This document shows positions 6,312-40,786 of a DNA stretch of 45,739 nt, piece by piece (within the stretch, counting starts at the first letter, position 1; each line of letters starts with the position of its first letter). Both the position numbers and the translations under genes were made by a program. The DNA is from a virus, in the IMG/VR virus record IMGVR_UViG_3300035698_017008, positions 1 through 45,739 of that record. One strand, 5' to 3'. The notes beneath the pieces were generated by a model. That model was not told the origin of the DNA. It saw only the letters and a list, made by a program, of their open reading frames with translations, and did not search any database.

Positions 6312-6336
6312 AATGGGCCCTTCGGGGCCCATTTTT
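6310..6336. terminator. Bidirectional terminator between convergent genes
   Basis: Perfect stem AAAATGGGCCC with TTCG tetraloop and TTTTT following on the plus strand; the mirror image also ends in T on the minus strand. It serves phoH from the left and the small membrane gene ending at 6335 from the right, whose stop lies inside it. Confidence 0.9.
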
Positions 6337-6538
6337 ATTGCTTACTTAATTCTTCTATTGCTGCTCGGTTATCTTTGACCGCCTGCTCGATCTGTTCTTT
6401 GAAGGCATTATATTCATCCCTCTTCATGTATCTCATGTCAGTAAAGTAAAAGCTGCCTATAGTCACACAAACAGTTATGATTGTGCCTAATGTAATTTTC
6501 CATGGGTTTTGTTTGACAATCTCTATAGCTCTGTTCAT
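6335..6538 (-). CDS. Small membrane protein, 67 aa
   Basis: One clear membrane segment at about 15-33 (ITLGTIITVCVTIGSFYF) followed by a charged helical tail of about 30 residues. It overlaps the previous gene by ATGA (6535-6538), and that protein has the same plan (N-terminal membrane helix, charged tail). Such nested pairs recall phage holin/spanin or membrane-complex partners, but no lipobox or other diagnostic feature is present, so function is unknown. Confidence 0.65.
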   Translation of the reverse strand: MNRAIEIVKQNPWKITLGTIITVCVTIGSFYFTDMRYMKRDEYNAFKEQIEQAVKDNRAAIEELSKQ

Positions 6539-6867
6539 TGTTTCTCCGAAATGGCTTTCTTTTGAATTATTTCATCTAGCTGTCTTTTGTATCTAGCCGC
6601 CTGGGCTGCTTCTAGCGGAGAGAGTCTACGATCTGCGCTTTGCTCTCGTTTAAAGTCATATTCAAACAATTTGTCTTCGAGCATTTGTTGCCGAATAGTA
6701 AGTGCAGTTTCTACGACCAGGCGCTGAACTTGTGCTTTATCTTTTATTACGTCCGCTGCATGTGCGTACCTGGAGTCTAGCGCAAATAGCGCACCGATCA
6801 GGGCAATTATTGTCCCGACCGAGCCCCAGAGTATCTTAATGCTGTTTTCTTTTGTTGGCATTTGCAT
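6535..6867 (-). CDS. Small membrane protein with coiled tail, 110 aa
   Basis: One membrane segment at about 11-29 (ILWGSVGTIIALIGALFA) and then about 75 charged, helix-prone residues ending in Lys/Glu-rich sequence. AGGGGA lies 7 nt before the ATG, and the GATAAATA promoter at 6888-6895 starts the unit. It is translationally coupled to the 67-aa membrane gene. It resembles the general shape of phage Rz-type or membrane-anchoring proteins; no firm assignment. Confidence 0.65.
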   Translation of the reverse strand: MQMPTKENSIKILWGSVGTIIALIGALFALDSRYAHAADVIKDKAQVQRLVVETALTIRQQMLEDKLFEYDFKREQSADRRLSPLEAAQAARYKRQLDEIIQKKAISEKQ

Positions 6868-26653: not shown

Positions 26654-27400
26654 CTAGTAGAGAGGTGTATAGTTAAAATTCTTTACCCACATATACCTTT
26701 TGATATTGCTTGTGGCTCCACCACCCCAGTTTATGTTGTCAGTTCCCCAGTGATTCATCATAACCCTGGCCGGCAGAGATGGGACTACCCTTGTGTGGGT
26801 GCCTATCAAAGCGTCATCCCTGAAGAATTCAATCTTTCCGGGTTGCCAAATAAATTTATATCTATGGAAACCATTGTGCGGCATGAAGTTTGAACAGTCA
26901 ACTTTAGTATGTTCACTCGGCATAGATTCACCAACCCAACTTGTTATCTGTGTAAAGTGACTTCGATCGTTGCCTTCTACTTCAAAGTCAATTTCTGTAT
27001 TTGCCGAATCGAAATATATGAAACACCCGGTAACGGAACCACTAATCGGTTGCCCGACAGAATCAATGGAGTCTGCTGTTGAGCTTGCACGCATTTCCCA
27101 TTCAAACGTACCATAATGAAAGAGATCCTTAGATGCGAGCTCGGCACCGTTTGACACTATTCCGGAATCAGTCGAAGACTGTACCATTGCGAGACGCAAG
27201 GCGCCGTCGACAATAGCTACATTACTGGCAAGAAATGACCCCTTGTGCGTCGGAGTTACCCCGGGTGCAGTCCAAGTGGATACAGTCCATTTTTCTGTAT
27301 CTAATTTTTTGAAATTATCAACAAAGGTTGGCCCTTTGGGTGTAGGTGTCGGCACAGGCGGGCTAAAAACTCTTTTAAACCATTCTTTAATTTTTTTCAT
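26654..27400 (-). CDS. Glycoside hydrolase family 16-like enzyme
   Basis: 248 aa from ATG 27400, which overlaps the deacetylase stop as TAATG. A basic N-terminus (MKKIKEWFKRVF) and proline linker (SPPVPTPTP) precede a beta-jellyroll. The catalytic signature ExDxE is seen as TEIDFEVEG with Glu136, Asp138 and Glu140. GH16 enzymes cut beta-1,3/1,4 glucans, agar, carrageenan or related polymers; the bond is not predictable here. No signal peptide is obvious, though the basic start plus linker could be a non-classical anchor. Last gene of the envelope cassette, so possibly processes the polymer made by the GT2 enzyme, or acts on virions as a depolymerase. Confidence 0.8.
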   Translation of the reverse strand: MKKIKEWFKRVFSPPVPTPTPKGPTFVDNFKKLDTEKWTVSTWTAPGVTPTHKGSFLASNVAIVDGALRLAMVQSSTDSGIVSNGAELASKDLFHYGTFEWEMRASSTADSIDSVGQPISGSVTGCFIYFDSANTEIDFEVEGNDRSHFTQITSWVGESMPSEHTKVDCSNFMPHNGFHRYKFIWQPGKIEFFRDDALIGTHTRVVPSLPARVMMNHWGTDNINWGGGATSNIKRYMWVKNFNYTPLY

Positions 27401-28155
27401 TATTGACATGACCTTAGTTCTCCCGATTCGATCATAAACTTGATATCTTCTGGCGTGCAATTGCCATTAATATTTAGCCTTTTTATCTCAAGAGTATCGT
27501 CACCCTTTTTATTATTTGAAATGGAATTGACATGTGCTGTGGATGTAAAACCGAGTTTCGATGACATCCTTAGCGCATCTTGTCTAAAATATCCAAACGG
27601 CCATGCAAAGCTTGTCACAGGTTTTCCTATAATTCCTTCAATAATGGCCTTAGACATGACCATTTCTCCAACAAGAATTCTTATATCAACTGTGTCCATC
27701 TTCCCTTCCCATTCCATATAGTGAGTATGAGAATGTGCGCCAATTTGGAAGTTGTTGTTTGAAGATAGCTCCAATAGCTCGTCCCTTGCCAGACGGTCCG
27801 GATTATCAAACACTCCACTCATTACATAAAATGTAGCCGACATTTTTCTATCACTTAGCATCGTGGCGGCCAGAAGATTATCCTTCCATCCGTCGTCGAA
27901 CGTAATCGCGATTGTTTTGTCGGGGAGGGAAATGCCGCCCCTCATATATTGCTCCAGAACATCTACTGTTACAGTAGTGTAACCCGAGTTCGCAATCACA
28001 TCTAAGTGCTTAGAAAAGTTTTCAGGAGAAATTGCAGTATCGGAAGCAGGGTAATCTATCGTTACCTTATGGTAAATCAAGACAGGTATAATTGATTCGG
28101 ATGCCATAGCTGCAAACTGTGCTAAAAGCAGAATAATTCCTATGTAAACCCTCAT
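27400..28155 (-). CDS. Secreted polysaccharide deacetylase (NodB/PgaB-like)
   Basis: 251 aa. A signal peptide (MRVYIGIILLLAQFAAMASES) leads to PVLIYHKV, the usual start of NodB domains in PgaB-type enzymes. Metal and catalytic residues are TFDDGW (Asp87, Asp88) and HSHTH (His141 and His145). It should remove N-acetyl groups from a periplasmic or surface polysaccharide such as poly-GlcNAc. The ATG overlaps the upstream stop (ATGA), and the stop overlaps the GH16 start. Host-type secreted carbohydrate esterases are unusual in phage operons; here it belongs to a six-gene polymer cassette. Confidence 0.88.
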   Translation of the reverse strand: MRVYIGIILLLAQFAAMASESIIPVLIYHKVTIDYPASDTAISPENFSKHLDVIANSGYTTVTVDVLEQYMRGGISLPDKTIAITFDDGWKDNLLAATMLSDRKMSATFYVMSGVFDNPDRLARDELLELSSNNNFQIGAHSHTHYMEWEGKMDTVDIRILVGEMVMSKAIIEGIIGKPVTSFAWPFGYFRQDALRMSSKLGFTSTAHVNSISNNKKGDDTLEIKRLNINGNCTPEDIKFMIESGELRSCQ

Positions 28156-28496
28156 TTAATGATTACTTTCGAGTTAGAACAACAATCTACTAATTTTTCA
28201 TAAACCTCTGGTTCAACATTTACGCAACCGGCAGTAACTGTGAGTCGGTGTTTTGCATATGGGCTCTTTATTCTAGCAAATCTTTGCTGGCCAGGAACAT
28301 CTATGACTCGATGGACTGCAAACAAATTGTTCTGTTCTCTATGAAACAGCAGAATATCTCCCCCGTAGCCGGGTTCGGACGTACTATAATGAGTAATCTC
28401 GAACTCACCAACAGGGGTATCATTGCCTACCAAGGCAGGATAACAATCTGAGGCGAAGCAGATTATCGCAAGGGCAATATCCACAACCACAGTCAT
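28152..28496 (-). CDS. L,D-transpeptidase-like protein (YkuD-related)
   Basis: 114 aa. A hydrophobic start (MTVVVDIALAIICFASDC) probably exports it. The segment LVGNDTPVGEFEI, then HREQNNLFAVHRV and finally TAGCVNVEPEVY fits the YkuD layout (TPxGxF, His, SxGCIRV-like cysteine). In bacteria these enzymes cross-link or anchor material to peptidoglycan. It is shorter than most and the Ser-x-Gly-Cys motif is altered to Thr-Ala-Gly-Cys, so activity is uncertain. AAGGGA lies upstream. Confidence 0.6.
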   Translation of the reverse strand: MTVVVDIALAIICFASDCYPALVGNDTPVGEFEITHYSTSEPGYGGDILLFHREQNNLFAVHRVIDVPGQQRFARIKSPYAKHRLTVTAGCVNVEPEVYEKLVDCCSNSKVIIK

Positions 28497-28499
28497 AAG

Positions 28500-28805
28500 T
28501 TATCCCTTAATCTTGCAGCCCTTGAGCCTTAGGTTCTGCTTTTCTTTCTTTGAAAGACCTGTAGTATCCTTCTCAGGCGGACACACAAATTCCAAAGGCT
28601 TTGGTGTAGGTTTTACTACTGGCTGGGGTACAGGTACCGGCGGAGGTGGCACCTCAATTTTCTGAATGACAGGTGGCGGCAAAGCCGGCGGAATCTCCTT
28701 AATTGCAACTGTCGAAATGCCAACTGCTGCGGCTATTGGCACTAACACCGGAAACCGCATCAGAAAGTTTACGACAACTGCGTTGCCTGGAAGTCCTAAT
28801 GACAT
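28500..28805 (-). CDS. Membrane-anchored proline-rich protein (TonB-like layout)
   Basis: 101 aa. One membrane segment near 18-36 (PVLVPIAAAVGISTVAI), then a stiff proline-rich stretch (about 38-70: PPALPPPV, VPPPPVPVPQP), then a small basic C-terminal part with two cysteines. This is the design of TonB/TolA-like proteins that span the periplasm. In the cassette it could connect the inner-membrane synthase with the outer-membrane-like protein. No direct family match. A GGGGAG ribosome binding site is present. Confidence 0.55.
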   Translation of the reverse strand: MSLGLPGNAVVVNFLMRFPVLVPIAAAVGISTVAIKEIPPALPPPVIQKIEVPPPPVPVPQPVVKPTPKPLEFVCPPEKDTTGLSKKEKQNLRLKGCKIKG

Positions 28806-28808
28806 GTA

Positions 28809-29267
28809 TTATCTCCCCAAGTTCCAGCCGAACCAATAGCTAGCGTAGAGCTGCATACCGGTACCACGACTGGGTCCGCTAGTCACACCGCGGAAATGAT
28901 TTTCATGAACTGCTTGAAGTCCTACATCAAAAACACCGCTATCAAACGAGCGGCTCATTTTAACGCCAACTGCCGGGACAACCTTGTTGTTATAAGAGAG
29001 TCCGTTCTTGTCAGCACTGTAGCCCAAGCTAACATAAGTATTTAGCGTCCATTCTTTATTATCACCTAATTTGCGCCAATCAATACCCTGCTCAATTTTA
29101 CCCTGGAGCAGAACATTATCGTCCTCGGGGGTGTTCTTAATTACACCCGGGTTGACAGTCAGCACGCTCCACGTCGATCCGGGATACCCCAACGGGGTCA
29201 GCCCGTCTTGGGCAACGGCGATACTAGATGCAAACAGAAATGCCGCAGTAATCAGAGTCTTTTTCAT
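28809..29267 (-). CDS. Secreted, probable outer-membrane beta-barrel-like protein
   Basis: 152 aa. Clear signal peptide (MKKTLITAAFLFASSIAVAQ). The mature part alternates polar and hydrophobic residues in strands (WTLNTYVSLGYSAD, VGVKMSRSF, GVFDVGLQAVHENH) and ends in aromatic YASYWFGWNLGR, typical of outer-membrane strands. It is too short for a large porin alone and may oligomerise. The ATG overlaps the GT2 stop (ATGA). By position it could play the part that PgaA or NfrA plays beside a GT2 synthase, but I see no detailed match. Confidence 0.6.
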   Translation of the reverse strand: MKKTLITAAFLFASSIAVAQDGLTPLGYPGSTWSVLTVNPGVIKNTPEDDNVLLQGKIEQGIDWRKLGDNKEWTLNTYVSLGYSADKNGLSYNNKVVPAVGVKMSRSFDSGVFDVGLQAVHENHFRGVTSGPSRGTGMQLYASYWFGWNLGR

Positions 29268-30337
29268 TTAAGTTCCTTTTGTGTTAAGTGTGAATCGAAG
29301 TCGTACCTTTTTACTTTGTTCCACGCAAGCATATGCTTGCCTAAAACGATAATTTCCACAAAGGCACGCATAAATGCATAGAAATTTACATAGCTTATCC
29401 AATAGTATACAGGAAATTTATATATGACGTCAAGTCTCCTTGTTCGGTAGGACGAGTATATGCACAAGAAAAGTGCGACTGACATATCAACAATCATCAA
29501 GGGAATTACTATGTTCGGGGCAACAAACAACAATGCAACCAACCAAATAATTCTATTAAACAAGACGGCGTCGGCAATAATCAACATCATATACCAATCC
29601 ACTGACTGTTTTTTAGTGAATGAAAAAGTTTTGTGCTTCTTCACTACTTGCCAAAATCCCCTATACCATCTCAATATTTGCTTATGATAATCCCTAAATG
29701 TGCTAGGATCCTGGGTATTAACTGCTGCTGCAGGAACATACAACACTTTATACCCGAGCCGATGACATTGCATAGTAAGGTCCATATCCTCTGCCAGAGT
29801 ATTGTGGTCTATGTGCATTTTGTCTAGAATTCTGGAATTGTACATGGATGCACAGCCCGGAGAAACAAACACCACATTAAAATTACTTTGTCCTTGCTTG
29901 ACAATATCTTGACCGTATGTATAGTCAAACGCCCTACTAGCAGAAAATATATGCGAATTGTTTACAGACTTTACTTGCCCGACAAAAAGTCCTACATCAG
30001 GATTCTTAATGGCAGCCTTCTTCATTTCTTTAAGGAAGTTAGCATCGACCTTCGTATCGCCGTCTAAAAAGATTACCCAATCATATCGATGAGTCAGTAG
30101 ATAGTAGCGCAATGCCTCTCTCTGGGCACGAGCCTTTCCGCCGTTTTCAGGCATTGTATAAACGTTGATGCCGGTTTTCGCTGCGATAAGTGCAGTGTCG
30201 TCCGTTGATCTATCATCAACAACATAAATGTCTGATTTTGGTGTGCCAGCGACTACCAGCGCATCTATTGTACCGCCAATAACGAGCTCTTCGTTATACG
30301 CCGGTATTAGAATGGCAACAGAATGTTGTTTTTGCAT
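29264..30337 (-). CDS. Membrane family-2 glycosyltransferase, processive synthase type
   Basis: 357 aa. A GT-A domain starts VAILIPAYNEE and carries VVDDRS (Asp41), DGD (92-94), AEDMDL (184-185) and QILRW (220-224), the D, DxD, D, QxxRW set of processive synthases such as PgaC, NfrB and cellulose synthase. At least two hydrophobic stretches follow (about 250-290 and 308-334), placing it in the inner membrane. It likely polymerises a UDP-sugar. Start is uncertain: ATG 30337 (chosen) or TTG 30355; neither has a ribosome binding site, and a hairpin sits just upstream. First gene of the envelope cassette. Confidence 0.88.
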   Translation of the reverse strand: MQKQHSVAILIPAYNEELVIGGTIDALVVAGTPKSDIYVVDDRSTDDTALIAAKTGINVYTMPENGGKARAQREALRYYLLTHRYDWVIFLDGDTKVDANFLKEMKKAAIKNPDVGLFVGQVKSVNNSHIFSASRAFDYTYGQDIVKQGQSNFNVVFVSPGCASMYNSRILDKMHIDHNTLAEDMDLTMQCHRLGYKVLYVPAAAVNTQDPSTFRDYHKQILRWYRGFWQVVKKHKTFSFTKKQSVDWYMMLIIADAVLFNRIIWLVALLFVAPNIVIPLMIVDMSVALFLCIYSSYRTRRLDVIYKFPVYYWISYVNFYAFMRAFVEIIVLGKHMLAWNKVKRYDFDSHLTQKELK

Positions 30338-30351
30338 ATACGCAAATAATA

Positions 30352-30383
30352 ACAAAGGGGTTGAATAAAATCAACCCCTTTGT
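30352..30383 (-). terminator. Hairpin between bS21 and the GT2 gene, probable terminator
   Basis: Perfect 13-bp stem (30352-30364 with 30371-30383), loop of six. On the minus strand it is followed by TATTATTT, so it can terminate the bS21 transcript. The same bases contain a possible weak promoter (TTGATT, 17 bp, TATTAT) whose start would be next to the GT2 ATG. Confidence 0.65.
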
Positions 30384-35494: not shown

Positions 35495-35818
35495 TTAATA
35501 GACACCATACCTGCTTTTTAGGTTGCTCATATTATTCGCTGTCGACATGTCATATGGATTATATGCACTCTCGACTAAAGTACCAATGTCTGTTCTTAAT
35601 ATGGATAACTCTGATCTAAGAGTGGAAACTTCGACTTCCAAGCATGTCATATTGTCAAGCATTTCCTGAATAGGCCCCCTGGCTGGAGGGCCGCCCTTCA
35701 GCTTTGCTGAAACTAGTTCACTGCCTATAATTTCTAGTAAATCTTCTGTAGATATTGACAACAGGAATCTGTCTAGTAGTTCTAACTTCTCTCTGCTAGT
35801 AAAATCAAATGCAATCAT
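35495..35818 (-). CDS. Unknown 107-aa coiled-coil protein
   Basis: Starts MIAFDFTSREKLELLDRFLL. Residues about 55-85 look like a coiled coil (CLEVEVSTLRSELSILRTDI). The ATG overlaps the thyA stop (ATGA). No family recognised. Confidence 0.6.
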   Translation of the reverse strand: MIAFDFTSREKLELLDRFLLSISTEDLLEIIGSELVSAKLKGGPPARGPIQEMLDNMTCLEVEVSTLRSELSILRTDIGTLVESAYNPYDMSTANNMSNLKSRYGVY

Positions 35819-37467
35819 ACTGCCATCCCTGGTTTATTTTTTACATCTGGGTGAGGATCATACCCAATAAGTTCAATATCTTCCCATTGTAGATTCAGAA
35901 TGTCATCAAATGTAGGTAGATCTTTCTTAATATTCAATATGGGCAAAGGCCTAGAGTCACGTTCTAGCATCTCTTTACACATATCCATTTGGTTTTGATA
36001 GATATGCACGTCCCAACCGAAGTAGACAAGCTCGCCGGGTTGCATACCCAAATGTTTTGCAAAAATATGGTTAATCAACGCATAGCTTGCGATATTAAAG
36101 GGGAGACCGAAGGGTACGTCGTTACTCCGCATCACGAAACTGCTGTTTAATCGGTTTCCTTCAACCGAATACATGTTCATTATATGGCACGGTGGTAAAG
36201 CAACTTTCCCTAAGTTGCCGGGATTCCATCCAGTAACTATGTGCCGCCTACTCAACGGATCGGTCTTTAAACCACCGAGTAAGTCTTTAACCTGATCTAT
36301 ATAAAACTTCTGGCGCCATGCATGTCCTGCCGGGGCAGTTTCTTTTGTAAATACCCAGTCTTTGGTATTCCCGCTTTGTTGTCTTAGGGCACGGTCGACC
36401 ATTCCTCTTGTATTTGTGAATTTATTAAAAAAATAAGGTGATGTAAATTTAAACTTCTTTCCTGTATGTTTGTTTTCTGCAACAAATAGATCGCCAGACA
36501 CAGAATTTAATATATTCTCGTTATATTTCCGCGGAATAAACAACGTAGTTTCCTTGCTGTAGCAATTTGCCGAAAAATAATCTTTGTCTAACTGAAAATC
36601 ATGCGGTGCAGTGGCCCAGTTATCAAAACCTATCAACGATTGTATGTCTCCATAGAAATTACTAAAACATCTCCATCGCTGATCTACAAATACCCCACGA
36701 TCCCTGTAGTTTGCTGTTTTAATCGGGTCATTCCCATGGCATCGTTCCATCATGTTACGCCACAATGTATAAGCATGTGTTAAGAATGGTGATTTGTTTG
36801 TTAACTTACCGTGCACCCCGCCTGTTTGTGTTCTCTGGTACGGATTTTTTACCTGACCCCTCTTTAAATTAGGTCGAGGAACTTCTACAACATATTTAAT
36901 GTCGTCTATAAATTGGGCACGGTAGTACGTATTTCCGTTTCTTGTGGGTAATTTTTCTAAAACAAGTATGTCGCCACTCTCGTTTGTCCTTAGTGTTTTT
37001 CCGACCATGTCGTCAGACAATATAACGGGCTGCAACGGGATATCTATATAATAATCGGCATTGATACCAAGGTATGTAGATTCTTTTATGAGTTCGACTG
37101 CCCTCATCCATTCGTCTCCCGCAAACTCCCATTTCCGCCAAACATATCCGTATCCGCGACCCATGTCACCTTCCGGCAAATGTTGAAGCCCGCGCTTATC
37201 TAGGAACTCCCTTGAGGTGTTCCCTTTCCAAATGTTAATATTCTTCTCTTCAAGAAGTTTTGTGTTTGTTTCTCCGCGAAGGAAAAACATTGTTTCTTCG
37301 AATGCAATTCGAAATGGCACCCTACGTGTTGTTTGTATTGGAAACCCCTTTGCAAGATCCCATCTCAGCATTCTCCCGAATACCGCTCGTGAGCCAACAC
37401 CAGTTCTATCTGGTTTGTCTACTCCGTTATCTAAAATATCTCTAATAAGGTCTTTATAGTTATCCAT
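35815..37467 (-). CDS. thyA: Thymidylate synthase interrupted in frame by an endonuclease-like module
   Basis: 550 aa, about 275 more than normal ThyA. Residues 1-111 (RTGVGSRAVFGRMLRWDL, QTTRRVPFR, ending GRGYGYVWR) and about 386-550 (YIDQVKDLL, SRRHIVTGWNPG, catalytic Cys427 in ALPPCH, FGLPFNIASYAL) together make a full ThyA, which methylates dUMP. Between them lies an uninterrupted coding insertion (see mobile element entry). No intein splice motifs are seen at the ends. It may be an inserted domain carried in the enzyme, or be removed in a way not obvious from sequence. A sigma-70-like promoter with an overlapping palindrome lies upstream. Confidence 0.9.
   Translation of the reverse strand: MDNYKDLIRDILDNGVDKPDRTGVGSRAVFGRMLRWDLAKGFPIQTTRRVPFRIAFEETMFFLRGETNTKLLEEKNINIWKGNTSREFLDKRGLQHLPEGDMGRGYGYVWRKWEFAGDEWMRAVELIKESTYLGINADYYIDIPLQPVILSDDMVGKTLRTNESGDILVLEKLPTRNGNTYYRAQFIDDIKYVVEVPRPNLKRGQVKNPYQRTQTGGVHGKLTNKSPFLTHAYTLWRNMMERCHGNDPIKTANYRDRGVFVDQRWRCFSNFYGDIQSLIGFDNWATAPHDFQLDKDYFSANCYSKETTLFIPRKYNENILNSVSGDLFVAENKHTGKKFKFTSPYFFNKFTNTRGMVDRALRQQSGNTKDWVFTKETAPAGHAWRQKFYIDQVKDLLGGLKTDPLSRRHIVTGWNPGNLGKVALPPCHIMNMYSVEGNRLNSSFVMRSNDVPFGLPFNIASYALINHIFAKHLGMQPGELVYFGWDVHIYQNQMDMCKEMLERDSRPLPILNIKKDLPTFDDILNLQWEDIELIGYDPHPDVKNKPGMAV
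36313..37134 (-). mobile_element. In-frame homing-endonuclease-like insertion in thyA
   Basis: Codons about 112-385 of thyA. The first part (DMVGKTLRTNESGDILVLEK, later GQVKNPYQRTQTGGVHGKL) and second part (AYTLWRNMMERCH, NYRDRGVFVDQRW, FSNFYGD, FQLDKDYF, TTLFIPRKYN) follow the two-part layout of phage mobile HNH-like endonuclease proteins. WR occurs at both edges (VWRKW and AWRQKF), and joining them restores standard ThyA spacing. The insert is in frame with no stops over about 820 nt. Confidence 0.6.
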
Positions 37468-37523: not shown

Positions 37524-37816
37524 AGAGTATCTGCAATCTTTCTTATGAGAAATTCTTCTTCAGTTATCGATTCTATAAAATCTGTATGGAGATGTTCATG
37601 CTCCTCACCGCCTTTAAAAAGAGGCGTTGAATAGGTTGCATACTTTCGGTAGTAATGTTTTGCCCATACTTTGTTCCCACCCTCGCATTCGACTGATAGA
37701 AATGCAAATACCCTTATATAAAAGGGGTAGCATATAAGCCCGTCTCTCCAATCTATTGGCTTAGCTTTAATTGCCTGTTTCCTAAGCCTGGCCTGTATTT
37801 TATTTGTAAAAAACAT
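37520..37816 (-). CDS. Unknown 98-aa protein
   Basis: ATG 37816 with GGA 5 nt upstream; starts MFFTNKIQARLRKQAIK, basic, with a Tyr-rich middle (KHYYRKYATYSTPLF). Overlaps the end of the SleB-type gene by 17 nt. Not recognised. Confidence 0.55.
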   Translation of the reverse strand: MFFTNKIQARLRKQAIKAKPIDWRDGLICYPFYIRVFAFLSVECEGGNKVWAKHYYRKYATYSTPLFKGGEEHEHLHTDFIESITEEEFLIRKIADTL

Positions 37817-38312
37817 GTTTTCCAAGTGTCATTGTGGGTTGCAAGTCTTCGGCCCACTTCGGTTGGGCTTTCTCTGGATTAAAGAAATGGGTTGCACCTT
37901 TCGTGATATCCCTTAATTCGCCCTGCATTGCCTGCACGGCTATTTTGGCGGCTGTTTCAAATTCTCTTATTACTCTTTCATTCTCAGTTCCATTCTTTTT
38001 TATGACAGGGACTTTGTTGTAATCAGAACATACCCAACTAAAAGCACAGACTACTTTATCACTGTACTTCAATTTTGCACTTTGCTCAACAACTCCGCAA
38101 ATTGTATCAGGGTACCGTTCGCTGTTTACTCTGTTCATTGTTACTAATGCTACTGCTTTTTGTCCTTGTATACCTTCTCCGCGTGCCTCAAAATAGATAT
38201 TTTTGGCCAAACAATATGCTTCATTCTCGTCAATACGTGACACATCAGATATAGTGCCAGACAATGAAAAAGTTTGGAGGATGTACACAAGGAGAATTTT
38301 TGCTGTTGTCAT
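37800..38312 (-). CDS. Cell-wall hydrolase, SleB type (candidate endolysin)
   Basis: 170 aa. A hydrophobic N-terminus (MTTAKILLVYILQTFSLSG) looks like a signal or signal-arrest sequence. The hydrolase_2/SleB core follows: AKNIYFEARGEG with catalytic Glu42, VALVTMNRVNS, RYPDTICGVV, FSWVCSD and THFFNPEKAQPKW. These enzymes cleave the glycan strand of peptidoglycan. It probably acts in lysis or virion entry. ATG 38312 has AAGGAG upstream, and a perfect sigma-70 promoter precedes it, which is unusual for a lysis gene normally expressed late. Confidence 0.88.
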   Translation of the reverse strand: MTTAKILLVYILQTFSLSGTISDVSRIDENEAYCLAKNIYFEARGEGIQGQKAVALVTMNRVNSERYPDTICGVVEQSAKLKYSDKVVCAFSWVCSDYNKVPVIKKNGTENERVIREFETAAKIAVQAMQGELRDITKGATHFFNPEKAQPKWAEDLQPTMTLGKHVFYK

Positions 38313-38350
38313 TATGACATTTCTCCTTCTTGATTTTTTCAAGTAAGTGT

Positions 38351-38370
38351 TATTTAGCCAAAGGCTAAAA
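38351..38370 (-). repeat. Leader hairpin of the SleB gene
   Basis: TTTAGCC-TTT-GGCTAAA (38353-38369) begins within a few bases of the predicted transcription start of the promoter at 38374-38402. It also contains GCTAAATA (38351-38358), a late-promoter-like word. It may protect the RNA 5' end or provide a second, late start. Confidence 0.4.
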
Positions 38371-38373
38371 TCA

Positions 38374-38402
38374 ATTATATACAAATAATAATAAGATGTC
38401 AA
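38374..38402 (-). promoter_or_regulatory. Perfect-consensus sigma-70 promoter
   Basis: TTGACA (38397-38402), 17-bp spacer, TATAAT (38374-38379), directed at the SleB-type gene. Both boxes and the spacing are ideal, the strongest host promoter seen in the window. It is back to back with the late promoter at 38409-38416. Confidence 0.88.
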
Positions 38403-38408
38403 TATTTG

Positions 38409-38416
38409 GATAAATA
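38409..38416 (+). promoter_or_regulatory. T4-type late promoter of the 782-aa gene
   Basis: GATAAATA on the plus strand, followed 13 nt later by AAGGA and then the ATG at 38438. Confidence 0.65.
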
Positions 38417-38437
38417 GTGTAAAGAAAGGATTTTTAT

Positions 38438-40786
38438 ATGAAACTAAACGACTTCGGGAAAGCAAAAAATGAGGGGCAAGCCCAAAACCCCCTGCCAGCT
38501 GTCTTAAAAGACGATGAGAGTCAAGTGCCGGAGCCAGGTGAGGCCGTTAGGACATTTAAGAGTCGAATAGAAGGACGTTGTGAACGTGTAGACGGGAACA
38601 CTGTTTATTTCAGAACCGGTGACGGTAGACTTATGAAATGTCCGATGGATAAGTTAAGTGTTATCAAAAAACTAGAAGATGGCATCGGTGGATCAATTGT
38701 AGGAGCAGTAGCTGGCGCGGCGATCACTAAATCACCAACAGGTGCTTCAGTAGGTTCAAAGATAGGCAGCGGGCTGCAAGACATGATGACAAAGGAATCT
38801 GGACTTAAATTTTACCCGGGATCTTATCCTGATGTTGACCACATGCATGGTGCTGTTTACAAGGGCGAGGATCCGGGTGGCAGAACAACTATCACAAATA
38901 AGGATTCATGGACTAAAAAAGCCAATTATATTAACTCAGTGTCTTATGATGACAACGCTGATATCATTTCTGACAGAAATGGAAGCCAATACGTAGCAGA
39001 CGGAACAGTATTTGCCAAATGGAGCAATAAATCAAATATTGGGTATGTTCTTATGCCAACAACAGAAGGTAGTATGGGCGGCATCAATAGATCACGCCCT
39101 GCACAAGACGTAAGTTACGAAAAAGTTCTAGACGATGACGTATCGCGTGAAGTATACGAAAAATGGTCTATGTTTAGTGAAGAAAGTACTGATGACAAAG
39201 TAGGCATACTCAAGAAGTGGGCCATGGATAATTACGAAAACGGTGCTGATACTTTTATTGAGACATACAGTGATGAAGACTATGCACTTATGTTGGATGA
39301 CCACCACGGAAGTGTTAAGGATACATTAGACACAATGGAACGCATGGCAAGTGTATGGAGTGAAAGGCAGGCCGATGCCAGATATTACTCTCGCGGAGAG
39401 ATGGAAGAAGACATTAAGAAAGACTTCGCAGATATTTTAGGAAAACAGCATCAAGAAGAACAGCCAAAAAAGAAAGTCCAAACCAAAGAAATACCATTTA
39501 ATGGATGGACAATTAGATATAGTGTCAAACAAAAACCAGATGATAAGTCTAAGTGGATGGTGTTTGATAAGAAATTCGTAGTACAGGGACAAGGCGAGTC
39601 TTACAACGAAAAACAAGCTGTTGCTGACGCAGAAGAATACATCAAAAAAGGCGGCGGTGCAAAGAAAGAAGCGACTGATAAAGTCACTATCGACTTTAAT
39701 GTCGACTTTACAAAGGAGTTTGGAGATACATTCTTCGCAAGAATTTTAGATGATGAAGATGGACCGGCTCTACTGATCGCATATGAGCCAGGCAACGGCA
39801 TGCAGCGTACACACATCCGTAACCAAAAAGATAAAATCACAGCCACAACTACCAAGCTAACATCCATGTCTATGAGCCCACGTGCATCTAATGAAGCAGG
39901 CTTACAGCCAAATGGTCGCTATATACTTGGGGCCAAGAAAGATCTAGGTGATGGTATTTCTAAATTCCCTCTCATATATCAGAGCACTGTTCAGGGAAAG
40001 GGCGATATGGTTAAGCTAGGTAAGCCCGGACTAACTGTGGCTCACAGTAGAGATGTGTCAGAAGACATAACACCGTGGGGTGGCTACACTAAAGACGACC
40101 CGGGCTATAAAAAGACTCAAAAATCACCAAAAAACATTAGACAAGGGGATACTGCATACCCGTTAGACCAAAGAATTAAAAACGGAATACAAACGCACGG
40201 GTTAAAGTGGGCGTTCGACGAATATGTTAAAAAGGCCGGTATCCCGCCCAGACAATTCCAAATACTCGCAGGACTTGCACCAAGTAAGCCAGGGTCAAAG
40301 ACACAGTCGTGGGAAAAGCCTGCACCAATAAGACTAAACCATAAGGATAAAGAATCTTGGTGGAAAAAGATGGTAAACAAATTCTTAGAGGAAGAAGATC
40401 CTTGCTGGAAGAATTATAAACAAGTAGGCATGAAGGTTAAGGGCGGTAAGAAGGTGCCTAACTGTGTACCTGTCAGCGAACACGAAGTAACACTAGAAGG
40501 TGACGAGTTTATAGGTCAGTTATATGACGAAGAATCGCTGTTAGAATCAGAATACCAAGGTAGATCTGTAACACTTAACAAGCCCATGCAAGGCGATGTA
40601 AAGAAGTTTAAAGTTTACGTTAAGGATCCGTCTACAGGCAATGTTAAAAAAGTAAATTTTGGCGACCCGGATATGAAGATTAGAAAATCAAACCCCGAAG
40701 CCAGAAAGAGCTTCAGAGCAAGACACAATTGCGATAATCCAGGACCAAAAACAAAGGCAAGATATTGGTCTTGCCGGAAGTGGTAA
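38438..40786 (+). CDS. Large probable prohead/virion protein, 782 aa
   Basis: Starts MKLNDFGKAKNEGQAQNP. There is a Gly/Ala-rich hydrophobic stretch near 80-115 (GGSIVGAVAGAAITKSPTG), an acidic helical middle, a domain near 350-410 that repeats Lys/Trp-rich strands (PFNGWTIRYSVK), and a compact C-terminal domain (about 710-782) ending SFRARHNCDNPGP and KARYWSCRKW, which I associate with structural or scaffold-linked proteins of T4-like aquatic phages. AAGGA 7 nt upstream. The stop abuts the stop of the convergent next gene. Role inferred only. Confidence 0.65.
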   Translation: MKLNDFGKAKNEGQAQNPLPAVLKDDESQVPEPGEAVRTFKSRIEGRCERVDGNTVYFRTGDGRLMKCPMDKLSVIKKLEDGIGGSIVGAVAGAAITKSPTGASVGSKIGSGLQDMMTKESGLKFYPGSYPDVDHMHGAVYKGEDPGGRTTITNKDSWTKKANYINSVSYDDNADIISDRNGSQYVADGTVFAKWSNKSNIGYVLMPTTEGSMGGINRSRPAQDVSYEKVLDDDVSREVYEKWSMFSEESTDDKVGILKKWAMDNYENGADTFIETYSDEDYALMLDDHHGSVKDTLDTMERMASVWSERQADARYYSRGEMEEDIKKDFADILGKQHQEEQPKKKVQTKEIPFNGWTIRYSVKQKPDDKSKWMVFDKKFVVQGQGESYNEKQAVADAEEYIKKGGGAKKEATDKVTIDFNVDFTKEFGDTFFARILDDEDGPALLIAYEPGNGMQRTHIRNQKDKITATTTKLTSMSMSPRASNEAGLQPNGRYILGAKKDLGDGISKFPLIYQSTVQGKGDMVKLGKPGLTVAHSRDVSEDITPWGGYTKDDPGYKKTQKSPKNIRQGDTAYPLDQRIKNGIQTHGLKWAFDEYVKKAGIPPRQFQILAGLAPSKPGSKTQSWEKPAPIRLNHKDKESWWKKMVNKFLEEEDPCWKNYKQVGMKVKGGKKVPNCVPVSEHEVTLEGDEFIGQLYDEESLLESEYQGRSVTLNKPMQGDVKKFKVYVKDPSTGNVKKVNFGDPDMKIRKSNPEARKSFRARHNCDNPGPKTKARYWSCRKW

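Follow-up and report, generated by a model that had tools for sequence, protein, structure and literature searches.

A putative polysaccharide synthase cassette with an L,D-transpeptidase-like gene and a lysine-tagged microprotein in a 45.7-kb virus fragment

The Pga and Ica systems of bacteria make poly-N-acetylglucosamine (PNAG), and the IcaADBC set includes a member of the acyltransferase-3 (AT3) type. Among viruses, chloroviruses such as PBCV-1 encode hyaluronan synthase (HAS) and chitin synthase (CHS), enzymes of glycosyltransferase family 2 (GT2) that make extracellular polysaccharide on infected cells; the benefit to the virus is still unclear (PMC5408694). Proteins can also be fixed to the bacterial wall, and in Lpp and the inner-membrane protein OutB a C-terminal Lys is joined to peptidoglycan by L,D-transpeptidases (LDTs) (PMC12274547, PMC12729407). 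Here we analyze a six-gene cassette at positions 26654-30337 of a 45.7-kb virus fragment (IMG/VR record IMGVR_UViG_3300035698_017008; the whole 45,739-nucleotide stretch is called the window below), in which components resembling both kinds of system stand side by side. As a whole, it is best explained as a phage-encoded inner-membrane polysaccharide synthase complex that is anchored to the wall via an LDT in an infected Gram-negative cell, a reading toward which we lean modestly. The best-supported new claim is a C-terminal Lys tag on the products encoded directly upstream of phage LDT genes. The open-access papers searched contain no description of a phage-encoded exopolysaccharide cassette or of LDT anchoring by phages, in agreement with a preliminary description of this DNA, which knew of no such set in a phage. 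In a 2025 review on LDTs, the word "phage" occurs only twice, and the passages concerned mention no phage-encoded LDT.

All six open reading frames (ORFs) of the cassette lie on the minus strand, and the junctions between neighbors are overlaps of 4, 4, and 10 nt or gaps of 3 nt. The features are as follows, in order of transcription except for the last.

29264..30337, minus strand: GT2 processive-type polysaccharide synthase, 357 aa (Pfam, NCBIfam, AlphaFold2 [AF2] model, and motifs)
28809..29267, minus strand: beta-protein with a signal peptide and a six-strand amphipathic beta-meander, a probable small or oligomeric outer-membrane barrel (AF2 model)
28500..28805, minus strand: MR(F/W)P transmembrane microprotein with a Pro-rich tail and the C-terminal tag GCKIKG (counterparts in relatives)
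28503..28520, minus strand: the C-terminal tag GCKIKG followed by the stop, with Lys at -4 and -2; a proposed signal for attachment by the LDT (tag statistics)
28152..28496, minus strand: putative YkuD-type LDT of phrog_38499 with His62 and Cys91 (family comparison)
27400..28155, minus strand: secreted NodB/CE4 polysaccharide deacetylase, TFDDGW ... HSHTH (Pfam)
26654..27409, minus strand: GH16 glycoside hydrolase, EIDFE, ATG start, overlapping NodB by 10 nt (Pfam)
30346..30383, minus strand: hairpin overlapping a promoter-like site, TTGATT-17-TATTAT, directly before the ATG of GT2

The start of GT2 was placed at this ATG and not at the TTG at 30355. That these are six real, nearly touching genes, as was first proposed, is confirmed by the ORFs and their overlaps, by recurrence, by close relatives of each gene, and by purifying selection on all six (pairwise dN/dS 0.08-0.29 wherever dS could be estimated, which left out the saturated NodB pair of L003 and L004). 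Since the gene set is found in four or more distinct genomic contexts under such selection, the cassette is not a chance arrangement.

The evidence for the tag starts from the enzyme. The window LDT scores 18.1 bits against Pfam YkuD and does not reach the gathering score of 23.4. Within the family, however, YkuD is matched by 20 of 30 proteins at E<0.01 (best 2.9e-5), His62, Gly90, and Cys91 are invariant in all 30 sequences, and the catalytic motif x-GC-[VI]-N is present. Thus the earlier label "L,D-transpeptidase-like" holds for the family and its catalytic residues, while the window protein itself stays under the Pfam cut-off; it is probably YkuD-like, with putative L,D-transpeptidase activity. 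It has a hydrophobic N-terminus and no classical signal peptide, and signal peptides are present in some relatives (L007, L008, L170, and L171). The conserved extra cysteines C13, C18, C105, and C106 suggest an oxidising compartment. The family, phrog_38499, is annotated as of unknown function and extends well past the cassette. In five Xanthomonas and Stenotrophomonas phages examined, the LDT gene is directly downstream of the gene for a secreted Asn/Gly/Ser-rich protein. Cultured examples of such pairs are gp120/gp121 of Stenotrophomonas phage DLP_5 and ORF391/390 of XacN1. LDT genes of many large phages (L016-L020 and L133-L168) were also seen to follow a gene for a secreted protein, either Gly/Asn/Ser-rich with 280-550 aa or of 130-150 aa, whose C-terminus is K-[KR]-I-x-[EGQ]. 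An LDT with a tagged secreted protein would thus be a widespread phage system that does not depend on the polysaccharide cassette.

When C-termini were compared, the upstream products of phage LDT genes were found to end in a Lys-containing motif. In the derivation set, the pattern K.{0,4}[GEQ]$ occurs in 16 of 17 upstream products and in 16 of 243 control proteins (7%). This pattern was built after viewing the 17 tails; the prediction was then fixed in advance and tested on newly fetched LDT loci, where the tag was found in 27 of 31 upstream products against 2 of 32 downstream ones (p 2e-11; the pairs are not independent, and some hold-out loci are near-copies). The consensus of 33 distinct tails is K(-5) [KR](-4) I(-3) x [EGQ](-1), with K at -5 in 27 of them. 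The tag is common to at least six protein families with no detectable similarity to one another, and the tagged products have a hydrophobic N-terminal signal or a membrane segment. At two hold-out loci a tagged protein lies nearby: in L132 the beta-protein had been picked instead of the microprotein, and in L137 one gene intervenes. L160 was counted on a doubtful ORF, and a secreted tagged ORF ending in EKKIRE is directly upstream. The exceptions to the rule are L157 and L171 in the hold-out set and L020 in the derivation set.

In the window, the tagged protein is the microprotein. A related cassette, L013, has its LDT gene relocated upstream: here the microprotein ends in TMVLPSVGL, which has no Lys, and the new neighbor of the LDT ends in PPPPKKIKE. 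The microprotein of the bacterial contig L042 ends in RKEYTQ, which fits the loose pattern, possibly by chance; its metagenome-assembled genome (MAG) has no LDT of the phrog_38499 family. Neisseria has a chromosomal LDT relative, equipped with a signal peptide, whose gene comes after an ORF ending in PKRIRQ. In the N. gonorrhoeae chromosome deposited as a plasmid (L172:4370-5336), this ORF, ending in PAKPKRIRQ, looks frame-shifted from a lipoprotein start. A 2019 review states that pathogenic Neisseria have no reported covalently wall-bound protein. The pair in Neisseria is thus a prediction and not biochemical support.

The tag might serve something other than anchoring, such as translation coupling or proteolysis. 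Several gene pairs overlap or abut, so that the last codons can hold the ribosome-binding site of the LDT gene. However, of 22 pairs separated by 20 nt or more, 21 retain the tag, so that it is not explained by a Shine-Dalgarno sequence within the preceding gene. The codons are mostly AAG AAG ATT, which is not Shine-Dalgarno-like, downstream genes and other ORFs lack the tag, and the chromosomal relative in Neisseria too follows a tagged ORF. We regard such a non-anchoring role as unlikely.

In the anchoring reading, the microprotein is a partner subunit of the synthase. GT2 matches Pfam Glyco_tranf_2_3 at 1.1e-26, over the gathering score. It carries the processive-synthase motifs DD/DGD/EDMD/QILRW, invariant in 19 homologues, and has the DD, DXD, (T)ED, and QxxRW signature and the GT-A fold of processive GT2 synthases (HAS, BcsA, and chitin synthase). 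The top PDB match of its AF2 model (pLDDT 90) is the chlorella virus hyaluronan synthase (TM 0.78), followed by cellulose and chitin synthases. Its best NCBIfam model is PgaC_IcaA, with 104 bits against a cut-off of 422 that is not reached. Bacterial relatives, at 35% identity or less, often combine GH18, NodB, and GT2 domains in one polypeptide, which ties this type of GT2 to deacetylated aminosugar polymers. Together with an Acyl_transf_3 gene added in two related cassettes, these fusions indicate a modified aminosugar polymer. A match to the phage GtrB family (1.7e-7) could instead mean that GT2 puts one sugar on lipopolysaccharide or a lipid carrier and alters the phage receptor. The PgaC model scores far above GtrB-like models, however, and the QxxRW motif and the synthase-fold matches point away from a single transfer. 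No GtrA flippase is found among the cassette genes, and receptor conversion leaves NodB and GH16 unexplained; we hold it to be decidedly improbable.

The association of GT2 with the beta-protein is strict. Searches with GT2 found relatives of its clade at 21 viral loci and on one bacterial MAG contig, all with the beta-protein. Starting from the beta-protein, a second search yielded no contigs beyond these except one where the contig end cuts off GT2. By both search directions, the association thus covers 22 viral records plus a bacterial MAG, and the two genes never occur apart, that contig end excepted. They are not always adjacent: in L007 and L008 they are separated by NodB and AT3, and L041 has another order. 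A microprotein of 35-141 aa with the MR(W/F)P motif, encoded directly after the beta-protein, is recognizable in 22 of the 23 records, L041 being the sole exception. The other members are optional, with NodB in 10, LDT in 12, and GH16 in 7 of 21 records, many of which are fragments; AT3 is also variable, and records with nothing but the triad exist. Hence the preliminary description took too large a unit: the core is three genes and not six, and conserved synteny in other phages, which it proposed as a check, is seen for this triad, while LDT, NodB, and GH16 come and go. Its idea of one coordinated envelope or polysaccharide module is upheld by the GT2-beta-protein association, the bacterial GT2-NodB fusions, and Acyl_transf_3 in two cassettes. 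A rule that every record with this GT2 has an LDT was rejected on records without one, and the presence of LDT is patchy across the GT2 tree. In two triad-only records, L028 (1869-2063) and L030 (8552-8788), the MRWP microprotein ORF is overlapped by another of its kind.

It is also conceivable that NodB, LDT, and GH16 form an accessory set for lysis or wall degradation, which remodels peptidoglycan or host capsule late, and that GT2 is incidental. LDT and GH16 do lack classical signal peptides, like many holin-dependent lysis enzymes. But GT2 is the most conserved member and never occurs without the beta-protein, triads occur without the three supposed lysis genes, and the window has its own SleB-like hydrolase (37800-38465), separate from the cassette, and small membrane proteins (6335-6867). 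The lysis explanation is accordingly a distinctly weak candidate.

The remaining members were assigned as follows. NodB matches Pfam Polysacc_deac_1 at 4.5e-17 and GH16 its Pfam model at 1.2e-16, both over the gathering scores, so that the profile checks first suggested for the members succeed here as for GT2. NodB has the Asp-His-His metal triad of CE4 enzymes (D88, H141, and H145, invariant), and its best NCBIfam model, PgaB, gives 63 bits against an unreached cut-off of 322. GH16 has the ExDxE catalytic motif with invariant E138, D140, and E142, and its nearest models are BglS and ExoK. It had been called secreted, but has no signal peptide and is not classically so. The name "beta-barrel-like" fits the beta-protein in its signal peptide and beta strands, less so in its size (152 aa, about 133 residues mature, 6 predicted strands; AF2 pLDDT 86.6); judging from this model, it is not a PgaA-type export porin unless oligomeric. 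A search of PDB sequences for relatives of the LDT or the beta-protein gave none of note. The supposed TonB-like protein shows no TonB signature by Pfam and is the MR(F/W)P microprotein with its Pro-rich tail.

The window carries T4-type replication and proteostasis genes. The cultured phages nearest to its DNA ligase and ClpX are PA5oct and Paride, Pseudomonas jumbo phages of the Arenbergviridae; ClpX is also near that of Sinorhizobium phage Phosso (about 46% identity). Gene order is colinear with Paride: thyA, folE, a QueD-like gene, ClpX, S21, [insert], Hsp20, ClpS ... ligase, clamp loader, and PhoH. The cassette sits exactly between S21 and Hsp20, where Paride has two unrelated genes, one hypothetical and one QueD-like, and is thus an exchangeable insert within a conserved backbone. 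In the window group its setting is ClpX-S21/Hsp20-ClpS; in L005 and L006 the neighbors are phosphatase and nucleotidyltransferase genes, and L007/L008 and L033-L040 have others. Among 50,697 GenBank phage records, no match to the beta-protein or GH16 was found, GT2 had only distant matches, and the deacetylases were unrelated. That the cassette is bacterial DNA carried by or mis-binned into viral contigs is hardly credible, even with a triad on a Candidatus Adlerbacteria MAG contig (L042:5989-8547; GT2, beta-protein, MMRWP microprotein, and NodB between the genes for S12 and EF-G), because the viral GT2s are 42-67% identical to each other (one distant, 28%) and at most 35% to all bacterial hits except L042, T4-type major capsid protein (gp23) is encoded in cassette records of 336, 358, and 122 kb, and the PA5oct-like backbone is colinear.

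Two other observations concern the window. The proteostasis set is unusually full (743-31896: ClpA/B-like ATPase, DnaJ, two ClpP-like proteins, ClpX, ClpS, and Hsp20), with ClpX and Hsp20 named by Pfam matches and the others by eye. A thymidylate synthase ORF of 550 aa (35815-37467) has a long mid-protein insertion, perhaps an intein or homing-type insert.

The promoter-like site of the window is not significant alone. Stronger sites stand before GT2 in relatives (12/12 consensus matches in L013 and 11/12 in L041, 0/200 shuffles; 10/12 in L002 and L003), and from these the cassette may be transcribed early and as a separate unit. T4-style late promoters (TATAAATA) were looked for on the cassette strand near the cassette, and none was found. 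A -10-like box (30335-30351) lies 8 nt ahead of the ATG of GT2, with similar spacing in L013, L028, L030, L033, and L041, which suggests a leaderless mRNA.

In the mechanism that we favor, a wall-anchored synthase complex, GT2 would polymerise a beta-linked glycan, probably containing N-acetylhexosamine, with the beta-protein and the MR(F/W)P microprotein as obligate partners; the microprotein could supply a membrane helix missing from GT2. NodB would deacetylate the polymer outside the cytoplasm. GH16 may trim it or free progeny from it, and as a guess, it is active perhaps only at lysis, cutting polymer that traps progeny. The LDT, a dedicated anchoring enzyme, would join the Pro-rich, Lys-tagged tail of the microprotein to peptidoglycan, by analogy with bacterial LDTs, and so fix the complex to the wall. 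Gene order, conservation, the catalytic residues, and the associations of GT2 with the beta-protein and of the LDT with the tag are observed. The identity and export of the polymer, the covalent bond, and the benefit to the phage are what we infer; most likely, the phage would gain by having the envelope shielded or reinforced while a long infection lasts. A coat, a block to superinfection, and a changed receptor, all suggested early, are candidate benefits. Decoration of virions, another early suggestion, is disfavored by the signal peptides on cassette proteins. More generally, many large phages may have a sortase-like pair, a dedicated LDT and a K-[KR]-I-x-[EGQ] envelope protein bonded to peptidoglycan, and here the tagged subunit would tie the synthase to the wall, so that the envelope is rebuilt with wall-linked polymer. 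We find the case for this general proposal evenly balanced.

Several points weigh against the synthase-complex reading. GT2 has three to four C-terminal membrane helices and none at the N-terminus, where PgaC and HAS have some. The beta-protein is too small for a pore of the PgaA/BcsC type, and the resemblance of its model to the EspP and OmpA outer-membrane barrels is weak and non-significant. A classical signal peptide is absent from most LDTs of the phrog_38499 type and from GH16, which begins with a cationic amphipathic N-terminus and a Pro linker. The linking Lys is terminal or penultimate in Lpp and OutB, whereas the phage tag usually has it 4-5 residues before the C-terminus. L042, the one triad found in bacteria, is from the candidate phyla radiation (CPR), a group thought to have no outer membrane. 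No cultured phage with the cassette is known.

If the synthase-complex reading is true, bacterial viruses would have, in a polymer synthase with its deacetylase and hydrolase, an equivalent of the hyaluronan coat of chloroviruses, in genetically tractable hosts. The tag would be a rule, readable from sequence, for which proteins phages may attach covalently to peptidoglycan. With it, phrog_38499 and unannotated genes in culturable Xanthomonas and Stenotrophomonas phages gain a function that can be tested, and unrecognised anchored proteins in bacteria may come to light.

Kinship with NfrAB had been considered at first, but the cassette ORFs include no large NfrA-like protein and no extra N-terminal domain of the NfrB type. 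The Pga/Ica systems are closer in their best models (PgaC_IcaA and PgaB), the small membrane partner, and the AT3 of two cassettes, as in icaADBC. Yet kinship with Pga, also proposed, fails in that every curated cut-off is missed and the PgaA porin is absent, a 152-aa protein being found instead; the cassette adds the beta-protein and LDT and has GH16 in place of the PgaB hydrolase domain. The bacterial GH18-NodB-GT2 fusions, the nearest bacterial relatives of GT2, join synthase and deacetylase as well, but in one polypeptide and with no beta-protein or microprotein nearby. With Lpp and OutB, the microprotein shares a membrane anchor, a linker, and a conserved C-terminal Lys signal facing the periplasm, placed at -4/-5 in the phage proteins and not at -1; several general host LDTs act on the former, whereas one dedicated LDT is encoded beside the phage partner. 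The chlorovirus system has the closest PDB fold to GT2 and is likewise a virus-encoded synthesis of extracellular polysaccharide. It differs in its algal host and in its single synthase gene with precursor enzymes, its HAS has the N-terminal membrane helices that the phage GT2 lacks, and in the accessible part of its description (PMC5408694) no deacetylase, LDT, beta-protein, or microprotein partners are described. By analogy, the cassette would work like chlorovirus-type extracellular polysaccharide synthesis joined to protein anchoring by LDTs of the bacterial type.

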